Both the position numbers and the translations under genes were made by a program. From Pseudomonadota bacterium (lineage in GTDB: Bacteria > Pseudomonadota > Gammaproteobacteria > Burkholderiales > Ferrovaceae): a stretch of DNA of 33,795 nucleotides. The notes beneath the pieces were generated by a model. That model searched no databases. It had not been told where the DNA came from and saw nothing but the letters and a program-made list of their open reading frames with translations. Of this stretch, positions 5,975 to 13,083 are shown piece by piece (position 1 is the first letter of the stretch; every line of letters begins with the position of its first letter). Location: assembly GCA_021850135.1 (NCBI GenBank), contig JAJZRV010000014.1, positions 1-33,795 on the forward strand. Direction: 5' to 3'.

Positions 5975-7747
5975 TTATCGCACAGCCGCGCCATCCTCGC
6001 TGGAGGCAGGGACACCTTTGGGGCCCGCTGGCTTCTGTTCAGATTTTCGTCTATGTTTTTGTTTTTGCTTGTTTTTTTTCTTGTTTTTGCTTTTTTGTTT
6101 GGGATTGGACTGATGTTTGGGGGCAATCTTAGGTGTTGGCACCTTGATAACCTCCGGTGCGGCATGATCCGACATCGGTGCCCCAGCGGTCTTCGGCGCC
6201 TCGGCGGGCCCTGACGATGGCGCTGGTGCCGATGGTTCGCCAGATGCTGACGGCTCGGCGGGCGCTGACGGTTGTAACGGAGTCATCGACGGGACAGGGA
6301 CATTAGCTTGTATGGGCTTGAGCTGTTCGCGAGCACTCTGGATCAATGCTTCCTTGCGATCCTGCATGGACTGCGACGCTTCCGCGGGACAGGCTTCCGG
6401 CTTTTCCTCTGTGCCCACCGATGCCCCGGCAACGTCCCCCGCGTCCAGACGCGTCAGCCCCAACGCGCCAACCAGCTTACCCATCCCCGCCAGGGTTTTG
6501 GCCACGTTGATGGCACGGTCATAGACGGCGTTGATGTAAGCACGCTTGGCCTGGTACAACTCATTCTCCGAATCCAGGAGATCCAGAAGCGAACGCTGTC
6601 CCAAATCAAACTGCTTTTTATAGGCGTATCTGGCTTTCTCAATGGATATCTGACGCTGCTCCAGGAAGCCGAGTTGTTCGGTAATGGTCCAGATGCCGTG
6701 ATAAGCCAGATCCACTGCCTGTCGCACATCCCTGCAGACCTTATCGCGTTTGGAACGTGCCGATTCCAGGTGTTCGATGTACTGATCGGAGCGGGACGAG
6801 TCCGCTCCCCCGTTGAAGAGGTTCCAGCTCATGACCACCTGGGCCACGGCATCACGGTTCTGCCCCAGGACGCCGCCTGCATTTTGGCCACGGGACTGGG
6901 ATAACACCAGATCCACCCGAGGTTGATATTTGCCTCGCCTCTCGTCCAGATCCGATTGCGCTGCCATTACATTCTCGACTGCGGCCAAGACCGCAGGATT
7001 ATTGCCAATCGCAACGGCCAACTGGGATGCCGCGGCGTTCTTGGGAACCAGATTGATGAGATCGTTGGGGCTGGCAGAATTTTCCTGTGCGGGAAGCTCG
7101 TTCACGAGCCGCATCATGCGCGCATTCACATCATGCACGTTGGCGTTATCGTTGACGAGATTCGATTCGCTCAGCGCAAGCCTTCCCTTGACTTGCTCCA
7201 GGTCCACGGCTCGCCCCACGCCGGCGTTTACCTTCATTTGAATTTGTTCGAATACCACGCGATGCGATACGAAATTTTCCTCGGACAACCGGTATAACGC
7301 CTTATGCCGCATCAGATCGAAATAGGCCTGCGCCGTTTCGAGCGCTGAATTCTCCATAGCGTCCGACCATTCGAAGTAGCGGCTGAGCTGGACATGATTG
7401 AGGCGACGCACTTCGTCACGCGTGATGAACCCATCGTAGAGCATCTGCGTCATGGTCAACGTCGTGGTGTCACGGTAAAAGCTGGAACTGATGGGCTGAA
7501 ACTGGGCCAGGGGCGTGGTCAATTGTTCATTGCCAGCGTTGCTGGAGAGGTCCACTTTGGGAAAGTATCCGCCGCGCGCCACGCTGATTTCATTCGTTGC
7601 GGCCTTGAAGTCGTGCCAGTGCGAGAGCACATCGGGATTCGACACCATCGCCTTCTGAGCAAGCTCCTTGAGGAGTTCGTCATTGGCGACCGTTGCCCCC
7701 GACAGACTCAAACCCAGGAGGGCAAGGATCAGGCGTCGCTTTCGCAT
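5975..7747 (-). CDS. TolC-family outer-membrane secretion channel with long basic tail
   Basis: This 590-residue protein starts with a signal peptide (MRKRRLILALLGLSLSGATVA). Residues about 25-445 match the TolC/LapE outer-membrane factor fold: two long helical repeats with the characteristic YDGFITRDEVRRL and WNLFNGGADSSRSDQYIEHL segments. TolC proteins usually end near here. This one continues for about 140 residues, first Pro/Ala/Ser-rich (SAPAEPSASGEPSAPAP), then a Lys/Gln/Asn block (KQKSKNKKKNKQKQKHRRK). The TolC C-terminus is periplasmic, so the tail probably reaches into the periplasm. It is the first gene of the secretion operon and so sits next to the promoter region. The ribosome site is weak. 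Confidence 0.92.
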   Translation of the reverse strand: MRKRRLILALLGLSLSGATVANDELLKELAQKAMVSNPDVLSHWHDFKAATNEISVARGGYFPKVDLSSNAGNEQLTTPLAQFQPISSSFYRDTTTLTMTQMLYDGFITRDEVRRLNHVQLSRYFEWSDAMENSALETAQAYFDLMRHKALYRLSEENFVSHRVVFEQIQMKVNAGVGRAVDLEQVKGRLALSESNLVNDNANVHDVNARMMRLVNELPAQENSASPNDLINLVPKNAAASQLAVAIGNNPAVLAAVENVMAAQSDLDERRGKYQPRVDLVLSQSRGQNAGGVLGQNRDAVAQVVMSWNLFNGGADSSRSDQYIEHLESARSKRDKVCRDVRQAVDLAYHGIWTITEQLGFLEQRQISIEKARYAYKKQFDLGQRSLLDLLDSENELYQAKRAYINAVYDRAINVAKTLAGMGKLVGALGLTRLDAGDVAGASVGTEEKPEACPAEASQSMQDRKEALIQSAREQLKPIQANVPVPSMTPLQPSAPAEPSASGEPSAPAPSSGPAEAPKTAGAPMSDHAAPEVIKVPTPKIAPKHQSNPKQKSKNKKKNKQKQKHRRKSEQKPAGPKGVPASSEDGAAVR

Positions 7748-7789
7748 CGGTTCAGAATCAAATCAAAATCCTCGATGGATTCGTCATTC

Positions 7790-7803
7790 TTGATAACAGT
7801 CAA
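7790..7803. promoter_or_regulatory. FNR/ANR-like box
   Basis: TTGAT-AACA-GTCAA matches the FNR/ANR consensus TTGAT-N4-ATCAA at 9 of 10 fixed positions. Its centre is about 50 bp upstream of the outer-membrane channel start. At that distance it could repress or, with a short leader, activate the secretion operon in response to oxygen. No regulator of this family is encoded in the window. Confidence 0.4.
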
Positions 7804-7945
7804 TGGGTTACATCATACATTAAAAGTTGTAGGAAAAGTTATTACAAACCGGAAAAATCTCACTATTTTTTGAAAAATCACAATAAATTCCATAAGTTAT
7901 ACGACACCAAAGTATGCGAGCGCTTACTATCGTGAAAATAGCTGA

Positions 7946-8069
7946 ATTTCAGAAAGCAGGCCCCTGAAAAACAGGAGGAAACCCTGAAAACCGCCGGCAA
8001 ACTTACGGATTTCACGGGATAAAACCACCTTTTCCCCTTAAAATGAGGGCCTGCCCTCGTTCATTTTTT
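7946..8069 (+). promoter_or_regulatory. Structured mRNA leader with terminator-like hairpin (possible attenuator)
   Basis: A hairpin GAGGG-CCTG-CCCTC (8045-8058, extendable by three weaker pairs) is followed by T6 at 8064-8069, only ten bases before the rhodanese ATG. It looks like an intrinsic terminator inside the leader. Upstream, GCAGGCCC (7956-7963) is exactly complementary to GGGCCTGC (8047-8054) within that hairpin, so the two pairings exclude each other. GCAGGCCC can itself be displayed in the loop of a TTTCAG/CTGAAA hairpin. This is the logic of an attenuator or riboswitch, but I recognise no known class. Folding is inferred by eye. Confidence 0.35.
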
Positions 8070-8079
8070 GGAGTCGTTG

Positions 8080-8460
8080 ATGAAATCCGCACATGATCTG
8101 GTCGTCGCTGCCAAGGGTCGCATCCGTGAAATTCCCGTGGAACAGGCCGATCAAGCCATCCGCAATGCCGACCTGCTGATTGACGTGCGTGAGGCGGACG
8201 AGTTTGCCGCCGGACATATCCCTGGCGCAGTACATATGTCGCGCGGGATGCTGGAGTTCAAACTCAGCAGCAACCCCAACCTGGCGGCACGCGACCTCAA
8301 TGTGGTGGTGTATTGCAAGACAAGCGGCCGTGCGGCACTGTCCTGCGTCGCCCTCCAAGAAATGGGGTACCTCAACGTCCAATCCATCGCGGGGGGGTAC
8401 GACGCCTGGGTTGCAGCCGGCAAGCCAGTCGCCAAACCTCCTGTGACAAAATTCGAGTGA
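8080..8460 (+). CDS. Rhodanese-domain sulfurtransferase
   Basis: I start this 126-residue single rhodanese domain at ATG 8080, preceded by GGAG at 8070-8073. The ORF track uses an upstream TTG instead. The domain shows LLIDVREADEFAAGHIPGAVHM, typical of the rhodanese N-terminal strand-loop. The active-site loop VVYCKTSGRAAL carries the persulfide-forming Cys, and GGYDAWVAAGKP closes the fold. No signal peptide is present, so it acts in the cytoplasm. It overlaps the metallo-hydrolase gene by 4 bases. The pairing suggests sulfane-sulfur handling: the rhodanese moves sulfur between thiols and the partner oxidises persulfide. Confidence 0.93.
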   Translation: MKSAHDLVVAAKGRIREIPVEQADQAIRNADLLIDVREADEFAAGHIPGAVHMSRGMLEFKLSSNPNLAARDLNVVVYCKTSGRAALSCVALQEMGYLNVQSIAGGYDAWVAAGKPVAKPPVTKFE

Positions 8461-9341
8461 CCGCACCCCTCGATGGCAGCGCCTCCGTGTTGGTCGAGTC
8501 GCTGTTCGACCCCTCCACCGCAACTCTAAGTCACATCGTGCTGGACACGGCCACGCGCCAATGCGCGCTGGTCGACAGCGTTCTGGATTTCAACCCCCAC
8601 TCCGGCCGCACCCGCACCGAAAGTGCGGATCGCCTGATCGCCCGGGTGCGCGCACTGGGTGCGACGGTGCAATGGATTCTGGAAACGCACGTTCACGCCG
8701 ACCACCTGTCCGCTGCGCCCTATCTGGCCGATCGTCTCGGTGGCCGGATCGCCATCGGCCGGCGCGTCACACAAGTGCAGCAGATTTTTGGAGACATCTT
8801 CAATGCCGAGGCGGGTTTCCGGAGAGACGGCAGCCAGTTCGACCATCTTTTCGATGATGACGAAGCATTCATGATCGGCAGCCTTGAGGCCAGGGCTTGG
8901 CATACGCCTGGCCATACGCCAGCGTGCATGACCTATGTGGTGGGGGACGCCGCGTTTATCGGAGACACGCTGTTTGCGCCCGATTACGGGACGGCACGTT
9001 GCGACTTTCCCGGCGGCGATGCGGTCGCACTCTACCGTTCCATTCGCCGTTTGCTGGCCTTGCCTGCGACAACGCGCCTCTTTCTCTGCCATGATTACCG
9101 GTCCGGTGAACGCGCGGTCGTCACCCAAACCACGGTAGCAGAACAACGCGCCACAAACATTCACATTCGTGACGGCATCGGCGAAGCTGCCTTTGTCGAA
9201 ATGCGCACTGCACGTGACGCGACGCTGGACATGCCTACACTCATCCTGCCCTCGGTTCAGGTCAACATGCGTGCCGGCCACCGACCGCCCGCGGAAGAAA
9301 ACGGAATTTGCTACCTAAAAATTCCACTAGACGTTCTTTGA
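8457..9341 (+). CDS. Metallo-beta-lactamase-fold hydrolase, persulfide dioxygenase/Blh type
   Basis: I start this gene at GTG 8457, overlapping the rhodanese stop (GTGA), which gives 294 residues. The longer ORF in the track reads back through the rhodanese gene. The metal site is clear: THVHADHLSAAPYLADRLGG (HxHxDH), HTPGHTPACMTYVVGD, GDTLFAPDYGTARCDFPGGDA and LFLCHDY. The DFPGGDA segment and the family pattern place it with ETHE1/persulfide dioxygenases and the related Blh proteins, which use a mononuclear iron to oxidise glutathione persulfide to sulfite. Together with the rhodanese it probably detoxifies sulfide or consumes sulfane sulfur. Its 3' end overlaps the convergent ATP-grasp-like gene by 15 bases. 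Confidence 0.9.
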   Translation: MTAPLDGSASVLVESLFDPSTATLSHIVLDTATRQCALVDSVLDFNPHSGRTRTESADRLIARVRALGATVQWILETHVHADHLSAAPYLADRLGGRIAIGRRVTQVQQIFGDIFNAEAGFRRDGSQFDHLFDDDEAFMIGSLEARAWHTPGHTPACMTYVVGDAAFIGDTLFAPDYGTARCDFPGGDAVALYRSIRRLLALPATTRLFLCHDYRSGERAVVTQTTVAEQRATNIHIRDGIGEAAFVEMRTARDATLDMPTLILPSVQVNMRAGHRPPAEENGICYLKIPLDVL

Positions 9342-10640
9342 GCAGTCCATTTTTTCCGTCCATTCCCACACTGGCGCAAACCCTCCTCCCGGAGTGCGGA
9401 AGTTGGTTGTCTGCCCCTGGTACAGGCGTGCCGCCACCCACTGCACCGCTCCGTCGTACACATAGTTACGTAAATCGAATTTCAGCCTCTGTGCGGGTTG
9501 AGGCTCTGAAATGATGCGTTCACCCGGCATCACGATCCGTTGCGCCACGTAGTCTCCCGCAAGAATTTCCTGCCAAACCCGCTGCGTGAGCTTGTCGCCA
9601 CGATAAGCCGCGCGACTGCCAAAACCTGCGACAGGTTTGAAAAACAGCTGGCGTCTGTCGTGCCACAGCCGTTCGGCCTGCGCGACCGCAACAACCTCGG
9701 TATGCGGAATACTGGACAGCAGGATTTCCCGAGTGGTCTGCGGCACACCCCATGAGCGCAAGCGTGCCTCATCTGTCAAAAGAGCGAGGTTGCGTTTATC
9801 CGCGTAAAGTGCGTGCGCGCGGGGATGCGGGGTAAGCACTGCTGCACGATTCAGCCAGGCCTCGCGCAATGATGTGTGGGAAACGTTTTCAAGCGCAAAA
9901 TCCGTCAGGCGATTGTAGACCAGGTCAATTGCCATTTCGCCGTACCACAAGCGCCCCTTCCGAAATTGCAATTCCGCAGGATCTGCAATCACTGCCTGCA
10001 GACCATGGCGCTGAAAGTACCGTTGAAACAGAAGGAACTCGGGGTAGAGGTATTGCTGCACAGGCTCATCGTCCACGATTGCGATACTTTGCAAGGGGCG
10101 ATCGGCACCCGCAAGGCGCCACTCCTCCAGGAACATGGCATGGATACGCGATTCGAACTGATCGGCCTGCGTCGCGGGTGAAACCAGCGGAGACATTTCA
10201 GGGCAGCATGCCCGCTGCGCCCTGGCAAGCGCTGCGTTGAGCAGTGCCCCGCCTGCATTGGTATTGATCTCGATCAGTCCTACCTGTTCATCTGTCACAT
10301 GGAAATCATAGCCCAGAAACACGCCATGCGACCCCGCCTCTCCCAGTCGCGCCAGTTCGGGAGCCTGGGCCAGCGCATCTTCCTGGTAAGCAGGCAAGGC
10401 AGCGACCGACGTCACCGCCTGCACAACCTGCGCCATGCGGCCAATCCGTTCCTGTGACACAAACACCGCGCGTGGGGCAAACAGATGGGGACAATGCTGC
10501 TGAATCAGCGCGTACAACCCAGGCTGCCCCAGCTCGGACTCCAGAGCGCTGCGCAGGGCCGCCTCGTCCAGACTGACGCAAAAACAGTGGCTGTTGAGAT
10601 TTTGACAGTTGAGGTCAGAACCTGCTTTCGGTTTGTTCAT
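9327..10640 (-). CDS. Uncharacterised ATP-grasp-like protein, last gene of the ars operon
   Basis: This 437-residue protein has no signal peptide or membrane segment. I recognise no exact family. Several segments recall ATP-grasp ligases of the glutathionylspermidine-synthase or circularly permuted kind: LIEINTNAGGALLN (about 122-135), IAIVDDEPVQQYLYPEF (about 186-202), IDLVYNRLTDF (about 238-248), KRNLALLTD (about 282-290), LFFKPVAGFGSRAAYRG (about 332-348) and FDLRNYVYDG (about 388-397). The Lys in FFKPVAG and the later acidic/Asn residues could bind ATP-Mg. The ATG overlaps the end of acr3 by 26 bases and has AAGGG upstream, so it is translationally coupled to arsenite efflux. ATP-dependent ligation of a carboxylate to an amine or thiol is a reasonable class prediction; the substrate is unknown. 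Confidence 0.75.
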   Translation of the reverse strand: MNKPKAGSDLNCQNLNSHCFCVSLDEAALRSALESELGQPGLYALIQQHCPHLFAPRAVFVSQERIGRMAQVVQAVTSVAALPAYQEDALAQAPELARLGEAGSHGVFLGYDFHVTDEQVGLIEINTNAGGALLNAALARAQRACCPEMSPLVSPATQADQFESRIHAMFLEEWRLAGADRPLQSIAIVDDEPVQQYLYPEFLLFQRYFQRHGLQAVIADPAELQFRKGRLWYGEMAIDLVYNRLTDFALENVSHTSLREAWLNRAAVLTPHPRAHALYADKRNLALLTDEARLRSWGVPQTTREILLSSIPHTEVVAVAQAERLWHDRRQLFFKPVAGFGSRAAYRGDKLTQRVWQEILAGDYVAQRIVMPGERIISEPQPAQRLKFDLRNYVYDGAVQWVAARLYQGQTTNFRTPGGGFAPVWEWTEKMDCSKNV

Positions 10641-11712
10641 ACCAACCCTTGCTCGTATTCACCGCACGCACCACCAGCAGCATCACCGGAACTTCGATCA
10701 GCACACCGACTACCGTAGCCAGGGCTGCACCGGAGTTGAACCCGAACAGGCCGATGGCGGTTGCAACAGCCAACTCAAAAAAATTGGAGGCACCAATCAA
10801 CGCCGAAGGACAGGCAATGTCGTGTTTCTCCCCCAACATGCGGTTCAGACCATAAGCCAAGGCGGAATTGAAGAGTACCTGAATCAGGATGGGGACCGCC
10901 AGCAATGCGATCACCATGGGTTGATGCAGAATGGCGTCCCCCTGAAATGCGAACAACAGCACCAGGGTGGCGAGCAGTGCCGCAATGGACCAGGGCCCGA
11001 CCCGCACCATGGCCTCATCGAATGCCTCTTGTCCGCGTGTCAACAAGGCGCGACGCCAGATCTGTGCAAGCACCACGGGAACGACGATATAGAGCCCAAC
11101 AGACGTCAGGAGCGTGGTCCAAGGCACGGTAATGGCCGAAATTCCCAACAGGAAGGCCACCAGCGGTGCGAAGGCAAACACCATGATGGTGTCGTTGAGT
11201 GCCACCTGCGACAATGTGAACAGCGGATCCCCCTGGGACAACCGGCTCCATACAAATACCATGGCGGTGCAAGGCGCTGCGGCCAGCAAAATCAGCCCGG
11301 CGATATAACTGTCGATCTCACCTGCGGGCAACAGCGGTGCAAACCAGTGGCGAATGAACAACCAGCCCAGAAAGGCCATCGAGAACGGCTTGACCAGCCA
11401 ATTCACGAACAAGGTCACGCCAATACCGCGTACATGTCGTCGTACCTCATGCAATGCAGAGAAATCCACCTTGACCAGCATCGGAATGATCATCACCCAG
11501 ATCAGCAGCCCCACGGGCAAGTTCACCTGGGCAATGGCCATCTTTCCGACCGCCTGAAACAATGCAGTGAAAAACTGCCCCAATGCGACGCCTGCGACGA
11601 TGCAAAGTAATACCCAGAGTGAGAGGTAACGTTCGAACACGCTCATCGGCGCATCCCCGACTTGCTTCATAGAGACTTCACATTGTGCAGACATTGAGGG
11701 TTTCCGCGTCAT
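10615..11712 (-). CDS. acr3: Arsenite efflux permease Acr3
   Basis: This integral membrane protein of about 365 residues and ten hydrophobic segments belongs to the Acr3 family of arsenite/antimonite efflux carriers in the inner membrane. Family hallmarks are LLAAAPCTAMVFVWS, with the Cys essential for transport in studied members, ALNDTIMVFAFAP, and IGASNFFELAVATAIGLFG, with the conserved Glu. I prefer the ATG at 11712, which overlaps the arsC2 stop by ATGA. The track starts further upstream, and an ATG at 11694 is also possible. It is the fourth gene of the operon and exports the arsenite made by the two reductases. Confidence 0.95.
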   Translation of the reverse strand: MTRKPSMSAQCEVSMKQVGDAPMSVFERYLSLWVLLCIVAGVALGQFFTALFQAVGKMAIAQVNLPVGLLIWVMIIPMLVKVDFSALHEVRRHVRGIGVTLFVNWLVKPFSMAFLGWLFIRHWFAPLLPAGEIDSYIAGLILLAAAPCTAMVFVWSRLSQGDPLFTLSQVALNDTIMVFAFAPLVAFLLGISAITVPWTTLLTSVGLYIVVPVVLAQIWRRALLTRGQEAFDEAMVRVGPWSIAALLATLVLLFAFQGDAILHQPMVIALLAVPILIQVLFNSALAYGLNRMLGEKHDIACPSALIGASNFFELAVATAIGLFGFNSGAALATVVGVLIEVPVMLLVVRAVNTSKGWYEQTESRF

Positions 11713-12212
11713 TGATGGCACTGCATACCCATTTCGTTCAGTTGGGTTTGCAGTGACAGATGATCAAGTTTGTTGAGCGGCAGGCTCATGAATAGCCGGA
11801 GACGATTGGCGATATGAAACTCTGCCTGGGTAAAAGCCCTGAGTTGCTGCTCCCGCCCCCCGGCGACCGCTGCGGGATCGGCAAAGCTCCAATGCGCCGT
11901 TACAGGCTGTCCCGGCCACGCTGGACAAACCTCGCCAGCGGCCTGGTCACATACCGTAAAAATGAAGTCCATCGGTGGTGCATCGGGTAAAGCGAACTCT
12001 GTCCAGCGCTTGCTGCGCAGGCCGACTACGTCGTAGCCCTGGTGGGTGAGGACCTCCAGCGTCAGCGGATGCACTGTACCGCGTGGGTCGCTGCCGGCGC
12101 TGTAGGCCCTGAAACGCCCCCGTCCCAGATCGTTCATGATGGCTTCCGCCATGATGCTGCGTGCCGAGTTTCCGGTGCAAATAAAAAGAACGTTGTAGAT
12201 TTTATCTTTCAT
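11709..12212 (-). CDS. arsC: Arsenate reductase ArsC2, low-molecular-weight phosphatase type
   Basis: I start at ATG 12212 (MKDKIYNVLF), inside the end of arsC1, giving 167 residues. The track ORF adds seven residues. The P-loop is CTGNSARS, with Cys 12 as nucleophile. FTVCDQAAGEVCP carries Cys 88 and Cys 96, the resolving pair of thioredoxin-coupled ArsC enzymes of the S. aureus pI258 type. It reduces arsenate to arsenite in the cytoplasm. It is clearly paralogous to arsC1 but strongly diverged, so the duplication is old or the two have separate origins. Confidence 0.93.
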   Translation of the reverse strand: MKDKIYNVLFICTGNSARSIMAEAIMNDLGRGRFRAYSAGSDPRGTVHPLTLEVLTHQGYDVVGLRSKRWTEFALPDAPPMDFIFTVCDQAAGEVCPAWPGQPVTAHWSFADPAAVAGGREQQLRAFTQAEFHIANRLRLFMSLPLNKLDHLSLQTQLNEMGMQCHQ

Positions 12213-12708
12213 GGCGCTGCGGCTGCCCCTCATTTTCGGAGTTTCCGATCTCGACTAGCAACGCCTGCAACTGCTCAGGCTTGTCCTGCAATGCTTCAAG
12301 CGGCAGCGCCACGAAGGCCTCGATACGCCTGCGCAGGATGCGATAAGCCGTCTGGAAGGCCGCATCGATTTCTTCATCTGTACCCGTGGCGTGCGCGGGA
12401 TCTTCCACGCCCCAATGGGCGCGAAGCGCCGGGCCAAGATAGGCCGGACAGGTTTCTCCTGCTGCGCTGGCACAGACCGTAATGACGATGTCCGGGGGTT
12501 GGGGCAGGCTATCCCAGGATTTGCTGTGGTACCCCTCAATGGGCACCCCTTCTCGCGCCAGCAATGCCAGGGAACGCGGATGGACCAGTCCTGTGGGGTG
12601 ACTTCCGGCACTTGTGGCCTTCCAGCCCGGGGGAGCCAGGTGATTGAAAACCGCTTCAGCAAGAATTGAGCGGCAGGAGTTGCCTGTACACAGGAATAAG
12701 ATATTCAT
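12202..12708 (-). CDS. arsC: Arsenate reductase ArsC1, low-molecular-weight phosphatase type
   Basis: This 168-residue enzyme begins directly with the phosphatase P-loop (MNILFLCTGNSCRSILAEA), with Cys 7 as nucleophile. ITVCASAAGETCP holds Cys 79 and Cys 87, the likely disulfide relay of thioredoxin-dependent arsenate reductases. The P-loop has an extra Cys (NSCRS) where its neighbour has Ala. The gene starts 3 bases after arsR and overlaps arsC2 by 11 bases, consistent with one polycistronic mRNA. Confidence 0.93.
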   Translation of the reverse strand: MNILFLCTGNSCRSILAEAVFNHLAPPGWKATSAGSHPTGLVHPRSLALLAREGVPIEGYHSKSWDSLPQPPDIVITVCASAAGETCPAYLGPALRAHWGVEDPAHATGTDEEIDAAFQTAYRILRRRIEAFVALPLEALQDKPEQLQALLVEIGNSENEGQPQRHER

Positions 12709-12711
12709 GGA

Positions 12712-13083
12712 TCACGGCTTTTCTTGGTTCGAAATGGATAAGGCTGCGGCGGGCTCACCGCATGCCACGCCAGAACGGATGTCCATACATTGCCCGGGGT
12801 TTCCGGAGCAACACTCCTCAGTGAGATACGCGACGAGATCCAGCATCAGCGGGATGTTGGCTCGGTAGCGCTGATACCGCCCCTCCTGTGTCACCGTGAT
12901 CAGCTGGGTTTGCGTCAGCGCCTTCAGGTGGAAGGAGAGGTTGGCTGGTGGAACTTCGAGCGCTGCACCGATTTCTCCCGCCACCATGCCCGCCGGCCCT
13001 TGCTTGACGAGCAGGCGGAACACATTGAGACGGACCCCCGAGGCCAGGGAGTTGAAGAGCAGTGTCGCGGTAGGATGGTACAT
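12712..13083 (-). CDS. arsR: Arsenic-responsive repressor ArsR
   Basis: This 123-residue winged-helix repressor of the ArsR/SmtB family has a recognition region around VPPANLSFHLKALTQTQLITVTQEGRYQRYRA. It lacks the ELCVCDL arsenic site of plasmid R773 ArsR. It carries Cys 91, Cys 92 and Cys 99 in ECCSGNPGQC near the C-terminus, resembling the three-Cys site of Acidithiobacillus ferrooxidans ArsR. It should bind the promoter directly upstream and release it when As(III) binds. No ribosome site precedes the ATG, and a -10 hexamer lies 6 bases upstream, so the mRNA may be leaderless. Confidence 0.95.
   Translation of the reverse strand: MYHPTATLLFNSLASGVRLNVFRLLVKQGPAGMVAGEIGAALEVPPANLSFHLKALTQTQLITVTQEGRYQRYRANIPLMLDLVAYLTEECCSGNPGQCMDIRSGVACGEPAAALSISNQEKP

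Follow-up and report, generated by a model that had tools for sequence, protein, structure and literature searches.

ATP-grasp ligases use ATP to activate a carboxylate as an acyl phosphate, which is then passed to an amine or a thiol. In the canonical members RimK and ATPgrasp_ST, a G.D...E.N..PG motif lies near the C terminus. The operons for arsenic (ars) and copper (cop) resistance are taken as well catalogued, and they hold a conserved enzyme family that is named "hypothetical protein." The ions concerned, arsenite and Cu(I), have one property in common with Hg(II), which is their affinity for thiols. Here, we describe a member of this family, X, encoded in a window of 33,795 nucleotides (the whole stretch of DNA analyzed; contig C18 of a 1.78-Mb genome, whose nearest named relative is a Ferrovaceae MAG), in which the G.D...E.N..PG motif aligns to residues 108-133 of 437.

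Results

X is the last gene of an ars operon

X (9327-10640, minus strand) has an ATG start and encodes 437 amino acids. It closes an operon of the order arsR-arsC1-arsC2-acr3-X, the genes of which overlap or almost touch their neighbors. The ArsR/SmtB repressor gene arsR (12712-13083, minus strand) scores above the cut-off of PF12840 and just below that of NF033788 (49.6 bits, cut-off 55). Both arsC1 (12202-12708, minus strand) and arsC2 (11709-12233, minus strand) encode arsenate reductases of the LMW-PTP type, which exceed the PF01451 cut-off and remain, with 80.7 and 71.6 bits, respectively, below the 174 bits of TIGR02691, the thioredoxin-coupled arsC model. The gene of the arsenite efflux permease, acr3 (10615-11721, minus strand), matches TIGR00832 with 388 bits (cut-off 283). 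The start codon region of X lies inside acr3, with an overlap of 26 bp (10615-10640), and a ribosome-binding site read from the sequence, AAGGG (10646-10650, minus strand), is found 5 nt 5' of the ATG, also inside acr3. The coordinates agree with the preliminary description of this DNA, in which X was the terminal gene of arsR-arsC1-arsC2-acr3 and overlapped acr3 by 26 bp. The motifs quoted there (among them VYNRLTDF and FDLRNYVYDG) all occur in the translation, and the claim that X lies outside every ars family is borne out by the lack of a match in Pfam or NCBIfam.

X is a real gene under purifying selection: its dN/dS is 0.07-0.09 as compared to two congeneric copies, similar to that of the arsC and arsR neighbors. 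In the window's genus, X stands behind acr3 in all four species where it was found (including genomes G001, G002, and G004).

The 3' end of X overlaps by 15 bp a convergent gene for an MBL-fold, persulfide-dioxygenase-like protein (about 8470-9341, plus strand), which forms a pair with a rhodanese gene (8068-8460, plus strand). The same pair is likewise convergent in two other loci (L040 and L041). That genes for sulfane-sulfur/glutathione-persulfide chemistry lie next to a putative thiol ligase might not be a coincidence.

The family recurs in arsenic and other metal-resistance loci

We found the family in 62 of 349 genomes of the window's order (18%), in 16 of 370 genomes of its class (two of them very weak), and in 90 of 398 genomes of a phylum sample. 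Two further groups in that sample, which we take to be Zetaproteobacteria and Magnetococcia, carry a shorter form almost universally. A tblastn search detected the family in 33 plasmid records, annotated as "hypothetical protein" except for two rows without annotation, while viral contigs yielded a single relative. We labeled a set of 114 members by their neighbors as metal (39), ars (13), MFS-linked (7), GT-linked (6), or other (49); these counts are not frequencies, because reference proteins were limited and sampling was partly chosen from plasmids.

Adjacency to arsC or acr3, seen in 13 of the 114 members, changes state 10 times on the family tree, a number that is approximate given the weak inner nodes of this quick maximum-likelihood tree. 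Junctions of 4-26 bp between the family gene (FAM) and ars genes occur in at least five unrelated families. The orders are FAM-arsR/arsC-acr3 with 18 bp (L044); arsR-FAM-arsC-acr3 with gaps of 16 and 5 bp (L075) or with an ATGA-type overlap of FAM with arsR (L090); arsR-arsC-acr3-FAM with 22 bp (L098); arsR-acr3-FAM with an ATGA-type overlap (L110); and arsC-FAM-acr3 with 11 bp, in which acr3 is cut by the contig end (L120). FAM is divergent to arsR-arsC-arsC in L099, and ars genes lie 1.4-3 kb from it in L052, L070, and L102. Tested against NCBIfam, the ACR3s at the tight junctions pass their cut-off, and two ArsC and two ArsR proteins stay below theirs. In 40 gene-bearing genomes of the order, acr3 lies within 3.5 kb of six family copies, where 0.11 were expected (Poisson 2e-9). 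Moreover, acr3 is present in 32 of 40 gene-bearing versus 16 of 40 gene-free genomes (Fisher 5e-4, a test that ignores kinship). The family is a recurrent ars operon gene across unrelated lineages.

Copper, mercury, and other metal-resistance loci (39 of 114) are nevertheless a commoner setting than arsC/acr3. On plasmids, the neighbors include copper P-type ATPases, CopA/CopB/CopC/CopD, multicopper oxidases, DUF2933, and DUF305, together with metal sensor kinases, RND and CDF efflux systems, and mer genes. Thus, the preliminary description of X as "locked" to arsenic holds for the repeated, non-random ars link that the neighbor survey revealed, but not for exclusivity. We rejected both extremes: an ars-only gene is contradicted by the metal-labeled members, and random positions without an ars link by the repeated adjacency in the wider census. 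On the family tree, the window's clade is closest to a copy from a Polaromonas copper island (L003), and for this reason, the X gene of the window's operon was probably derived from a metal island.

Some chromosomal clades of the family have no metal neighbors. One of them (L047, L105, L112, L122, L124, L125, L128, L135, and L136) shows the order dinG-X-mobB-moeA-moaE, stable over several genera, in which the dinG-like and molybdenum cofactor genes were identified by reading sequences rather than by profiles. Another chromosomal setting is thiolase/crcB. Copper islands also carry metabolic cargo, such as ppk2, transaldolase, and phosphoketolase. We saw no gshA, thiol transporter, or further gene of a ligase pathway that accompanies the family consistently, and therefore, no neighbor fixes the substrate of X. 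In three loci, a gene for an asparagine-synthase-like NAGGN amidotransferase lies directly 3' of the family gene (L003, at 7633-9465; L095; and L103). The NAGGN osmolyte dipeptide pathway likewise uses an ATP-grasp ligase, and a dipeptide product of the family is another option.

A deep clade is linked to TIGR04283 and TIGR04282

In the deep f230 group, the family gene is followed by genes of TIGR04283 and TIGR04282 with overlapping starts, both of which score above cut-off. NCBI names both as arsenosugar biosynthesis glycosyltransferases. TIGR04283 lies next to the gene in about 35 genomes, which belong to a single family of another class. The three-gene cluster (L054, L055, L056, L062, L063, and L067) lies opposite rlmN in five of these six loci. 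ArsS (TIGR04167) exceeds its cut-off in all 20 TIGR04283-linked and all 12 MFS-linked clade genomes examined, where it is not adjacent to the gene; in the window's genome, both ArsS and TIGR04283 are below cut-off.

None of the 16 f230 genomes examined has a canonical gshB above cut-off, and in the two inspected (G472 and G500), the best gshB match appears, by its N-terminal sequence, to be RimK. Of the 17 family-bearing genomes examined from the window's class, 14 have a canonical gshB above cut-off, and therefore, the metal-linked copies can at most supplement it. The idea of the whole family as a gshB substitute was discarded, since most metal-linked hosts have gshB. These findings in f230 hint that the ancestral role may have been in thiol or organoarsenical chemistry, and the three-gene cluster is a lead for the missing steps of arsenosugar or thiol synthesis.

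Profile comparisons point to the ATP-grasp superfamily

In single-sequence searches, the X protein alone had no match in Pfam, NCBIfam, PHROGs, or the PDB. It did not match CP_ATPgrasp_2 (PF14403) at E<1, and a deep member (L054) reached 13.7 bits against this family, below the gathering cut-off of 32. No family member, scanned singly, was found above any Pfam or NCBIfam cut-off. Single members gave weak matches to four ATP-grasp Pfam families, namely, CP_ATPgrasp_2 (best 4.8e-6), ATP-grasp_3, ATPgrasp_ST, and YheCD, as well as to TTL (5.8e-6, one member).

We compared profiles built from two family alignments: A1 comprises 29 relatives, and A12, which is broader, comprises 20 sequences including deep branches. 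Using hhalign, the E-values of which refer here to single pairwise comparisons and not to database searches, we aligned two profile versions of the family with CP_ATPgrasp_2 at probabilities of 94.6 (E 6.6e-8) and 96.6 (E 4.8e-10). By comparison, an unrelated glycosyltransferase profile gave 0.04-0.07 and a reversed profile 0.1. Eukaryotic-type glutathione synthetase scored 65.9 with the broad profile, over 309 co-linear columns, and 16.6 with the narrow one; EINT was placed on EINT and FFKP..G on VLKPQREGGG. This comparison used four glutathione synthetase sequences taken from PDB search results (A13), for which the query was a sequence of the human enzyme that matched 2hgs over its full length. 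GSP_synth (PF03738) scored 0.6-3.1. A search of the PDB with the A12 profile returned three sequences at E<10, all of them ATP-grasps: 3n6x, a putative glutathionylspermidine synthase and the best match (E 0.015), and E. coli glutathione synthetase (1gsa and 1glv, E 1.4-1.5). When the family profile was rotated to reverse the permutation, its score against canonical ATP-grasps, whose profiles are shallow, did not rise. Two AlphaFold2 runs gave pLDDT values of 41.1 and 39.4 and are uninformative because their alignments held three sequences only.

By sequence profile, the family is recognizable as part of the ATP-grasp superfamily, and X very probably belongs to this enzyme class. The preliminary description had proposed a ligase of the glutathionylspermidine-synthase or permuted ATP-grasp kind. 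The second of these was upheld by the likeness to CP_ATPgrasp_2 (97% hhalign probability). Glutathionylspermidine synthase was dropped as the nearest kin, since GSP_synth reached 3%, eukaryotic-type glutathione synthetase 66%, and CP_ATPgrasp_2 97%.

Conserved motifs indicate a circular permutation

The residues D112, H114, I123, E124, N126, R244, D247, K282, K335, P336, Q367, D389, R391, and R405 are invariant in the 114 members, among them the presumed ATP-binding lysine (K335), D/R segment (D389, R391, and R405), and E-x-N metal ligands (E124 and N126). The predicted metal-binding segment, DFH...LIEINTNAGG (residues 112-131; 10248-10307, minus strand), is N-terminal in X; its E-x-N aligns with the C-terminal E-x-N of RimK and ATPgrasp_ST and with the N-terminal EINT of eukaryotic-type glutathione synthetase. 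The putative ATP-binding lysine and glycine-rich loop, FFKPVAGFGSRAAYRGDKLT (residues 333-352; 9585-9644, minus strand), aligned to the K/G-loop of CP_ATPgrasp_2, glutathione synthetases, and ATPgrasp_ST. In the CP_ATPgrasp_2 alignment, the C-terminal ATP-grasp segment corresponds to KFDLRNYVYDG...AARLYQGQTTNFRTPGGGFAPV (residues 386-424; 9369-9485, minus strand), which holds the invariant D389, R391, and R405. Judged by this motif order, X is circularly permuted: E-x-N precedes the KP..G loop, an arrangement also seen in CP_ATPgrasp_2, GSP_synth, and eukaryotic-type glutathione synthetase. In one of the deep members, residues 58-81 match the C-terminal motif of ATPgrasp_ST, and residues 242-343 match the N-terminal half of ATP-grasp_3.

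The member alignment also revealed a signature of four cysteines, composed of C19-x-C21 (CxC; codons at 10578-10586, minus strand) and C145-C146 (CC; 10203-10208, minus strand). C19 and C21 are each present in 13 of 13 ars and 38 of 39 metal members and are missing from the TIGR04283-linked clade. All four cysteines occur in 13 of 13 ars and 35 of 39 metal members (48 of 52 together), 24 of 49 others, and 0 of 13 deep members. The association with the metal setting (Fisher 1.6e-6) is not significant over independent pairs of the tree, because the signature marks one large clade, with losses in vertically inherited chromosomal copies; an adaptation to the metal setting was therefore rejected. 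Metal binding by the CxC/CC cysteines is plausible. Four copper-island members (L003:5944-7617, L005:5956-7617, L026:5986-7635, and L028:5998-7707) are extended at the C terminus by about 115 amino acids, and this extension showed no Pfam match.

Discussion

Our computations establish operon membership, ATP-grasp-type motifs and topology, and a recurrent linkage to ars and copper/metal loci. On this basis, we tentatively favor, at somewhat below even chances, X as a permuted ATP-grasp ligase accessory to soft-metal(loid) detoxification, most likely with a glutathione-like or peptidyl thiol product. In such a scheme, arsenite would lead ArsR to derepress X along with arsC and acr3. The induced enzyme would bind ATP-Mg via K335, E124, and N126, convert a carboxylate to an acyl phosphate, and couple this to an amine. 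It would most likely make or extend a small glutathione-like or peptidyl molecule bearing a thiol, which could buffer As(III) in the present operon and Cu(I), Hg(II), or similar ions in other settings. Co-induction, the ligase chemistry, the thiol or peptide product, and metal binding by the CxC/CC cysteines are what we infer. Arsenite, Cu(I), and Hg(II) all bind thiols, and a stand-alone thiol/peptide ligase would suit all three settings, unlike a metal-specific enzyme. Several results speak against this scheme: the low pLDDT of the structure models, the failure of any member to exceed a Pfam or NCBIfam cut-off, the absence of a constant pathway neighbor, the four cysteines missing from about half of the sampled members beyond the ars and metal sets and unlinked to the metal setting on the tree, and the canonical gshB in most of the window's-class hosts examined. 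A direct part of the family in metal(loid) tolerance is probable, and a thiol or peptide product, which the preliminary description had also raised as a binder of As(III), is conceivable on a more speculative footing. It is doubtful that the family forms a new low-molecular-weight thiol or metal-binding peptide for arsenic, copper, and mercury loci and replaces canonical glutathione synthetase in lineages without one above cut-off.

Several other readings have to be weighed. X could be a general stress gene that travels as cargo of metal islands, or it could stand in for a housekeeping ligase such as glutathione synthetase, in either case with no direct metal role. Many chromosomal copies beside unrelated conserved genes (dinG-X-mobB-moeA-moaE and thiolase/crcB) would fit, as would the other metabolic cargo of the copper islands (including ppk2, transaldolase, and phosphoketolase) and the 16 of 16 f230 genomes without canonical gshB above cut-off, with the RimK-like best match in G472 and G500. 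However, hitch-hiking does not readily account for independent insertions inside ars operons, which come from at least five unrelated families and have junctions of 4-26 bp, and X is under strong purifying selection, which makes this reading unlikely. That X is not an ATP-grasp, or is inactive, would agree with the missing domain match above cut-off and the failed AlphaFold2 models (pLDDT 39-41, three sequences), but the concordant weak matches to five ATP-grasp families, the strong hhalign result, the invariant catalytic-type residues, and dN/dS of 0.07-0.09 leave it scarcely credible.

The stand-alone position of the gene, without a pathway, would also suit a protein modifier that, like RimK or tubulin tyrosine ligase, adds amino acids to a protein such as ArsR, ArsC, or a transporter and so tunes or protects it under metal stress. 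TTL and RimK are in the same superfamily, TTL matched one member at 5.8e-6, and RimK profiles have the E-x-N motif in common with X. Nonetheless, the neighbors vary among ars, cop, mer, and chromosomal loci such that no common protein target is visible, and we regard such a role as quite improbable. Still less probable is an arsenic-specific chemistry, in which X would conjugate an arsenical or organoarsenical precursor, as in arsenosugar- or arsinothricin-like compounds, and the copper-island copies would be secondary recruits. It is favored by the repeated recruitment into ars operons, by TIGR04283 and TIGR04282 directly after the gene in about 35 genomes, and by ArsS above cut-off in 20 of 20 TIGR04283-linked and 12 of 12 MFS-linked genomes examined. 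Yet ArsS is encoded elsewhere in those genomes, ArsS and TIGR04283 are below cut-off in the window's genome, the arsenosugar family names depend on NCBI annotation, and the commoner setting is copper and mercury loci without ars genes.

The X family is covered by no curated family, although its superfamily is known. Among the open-access papers searched, we found none that ties ars or cop operons to an ATP-grasp protein, and the use of an ATP-grasp ligase as an accessory of metal resistance appears to be undescribed there. If the metal-protective product proves true, it would represent a new biosynthetic arm of arsenic and copper resistance besides reduction, efflux, and methylation, and one that is mobile on plasmids. 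With a stand-alone gene, an obvious enzyme class, and phenotypes that lend themselves to clear assays, the family is directly testable.

Among known ATP-grasps, CP_ATPgrasp_2 (PF14403, e.g., 3n6x) shares with X the motif order and 220-231 aligned columns, including VYNRLTDF, FFKP..G.G, and the Q and D.R segments. It differs in its low identity (15-18%) and a best single-member match of only 4.8e-6, and the N-terminal CxC segment is peculiar to the X family. Eukaryotic-type glutathione synthetase (2hgs, 1m0t, and 3kaj) is of similar length, with EINT N-terminal and the KP..G loop C-terminal, whereas X is without the GGGNN loop and other invariant residues and shows no direct sequence match. GSP_synth (PF03738; bifunctional and YgiC-type) has an aligned E-x-N motif in its N-terminal half, but the hhalign probability is 0.6-3.1 and the ATP-binding half of X is unaligned. 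The canonical ATP-grasps RimK, ATPgrasp_ST, and GshB have single motifs in common with X, either E-x-N or KP.GSGGKG; in contrast to X, in which E-x-N lies in residues 112-131 of 437, they carry it at residues 245-282 of about 300-326.
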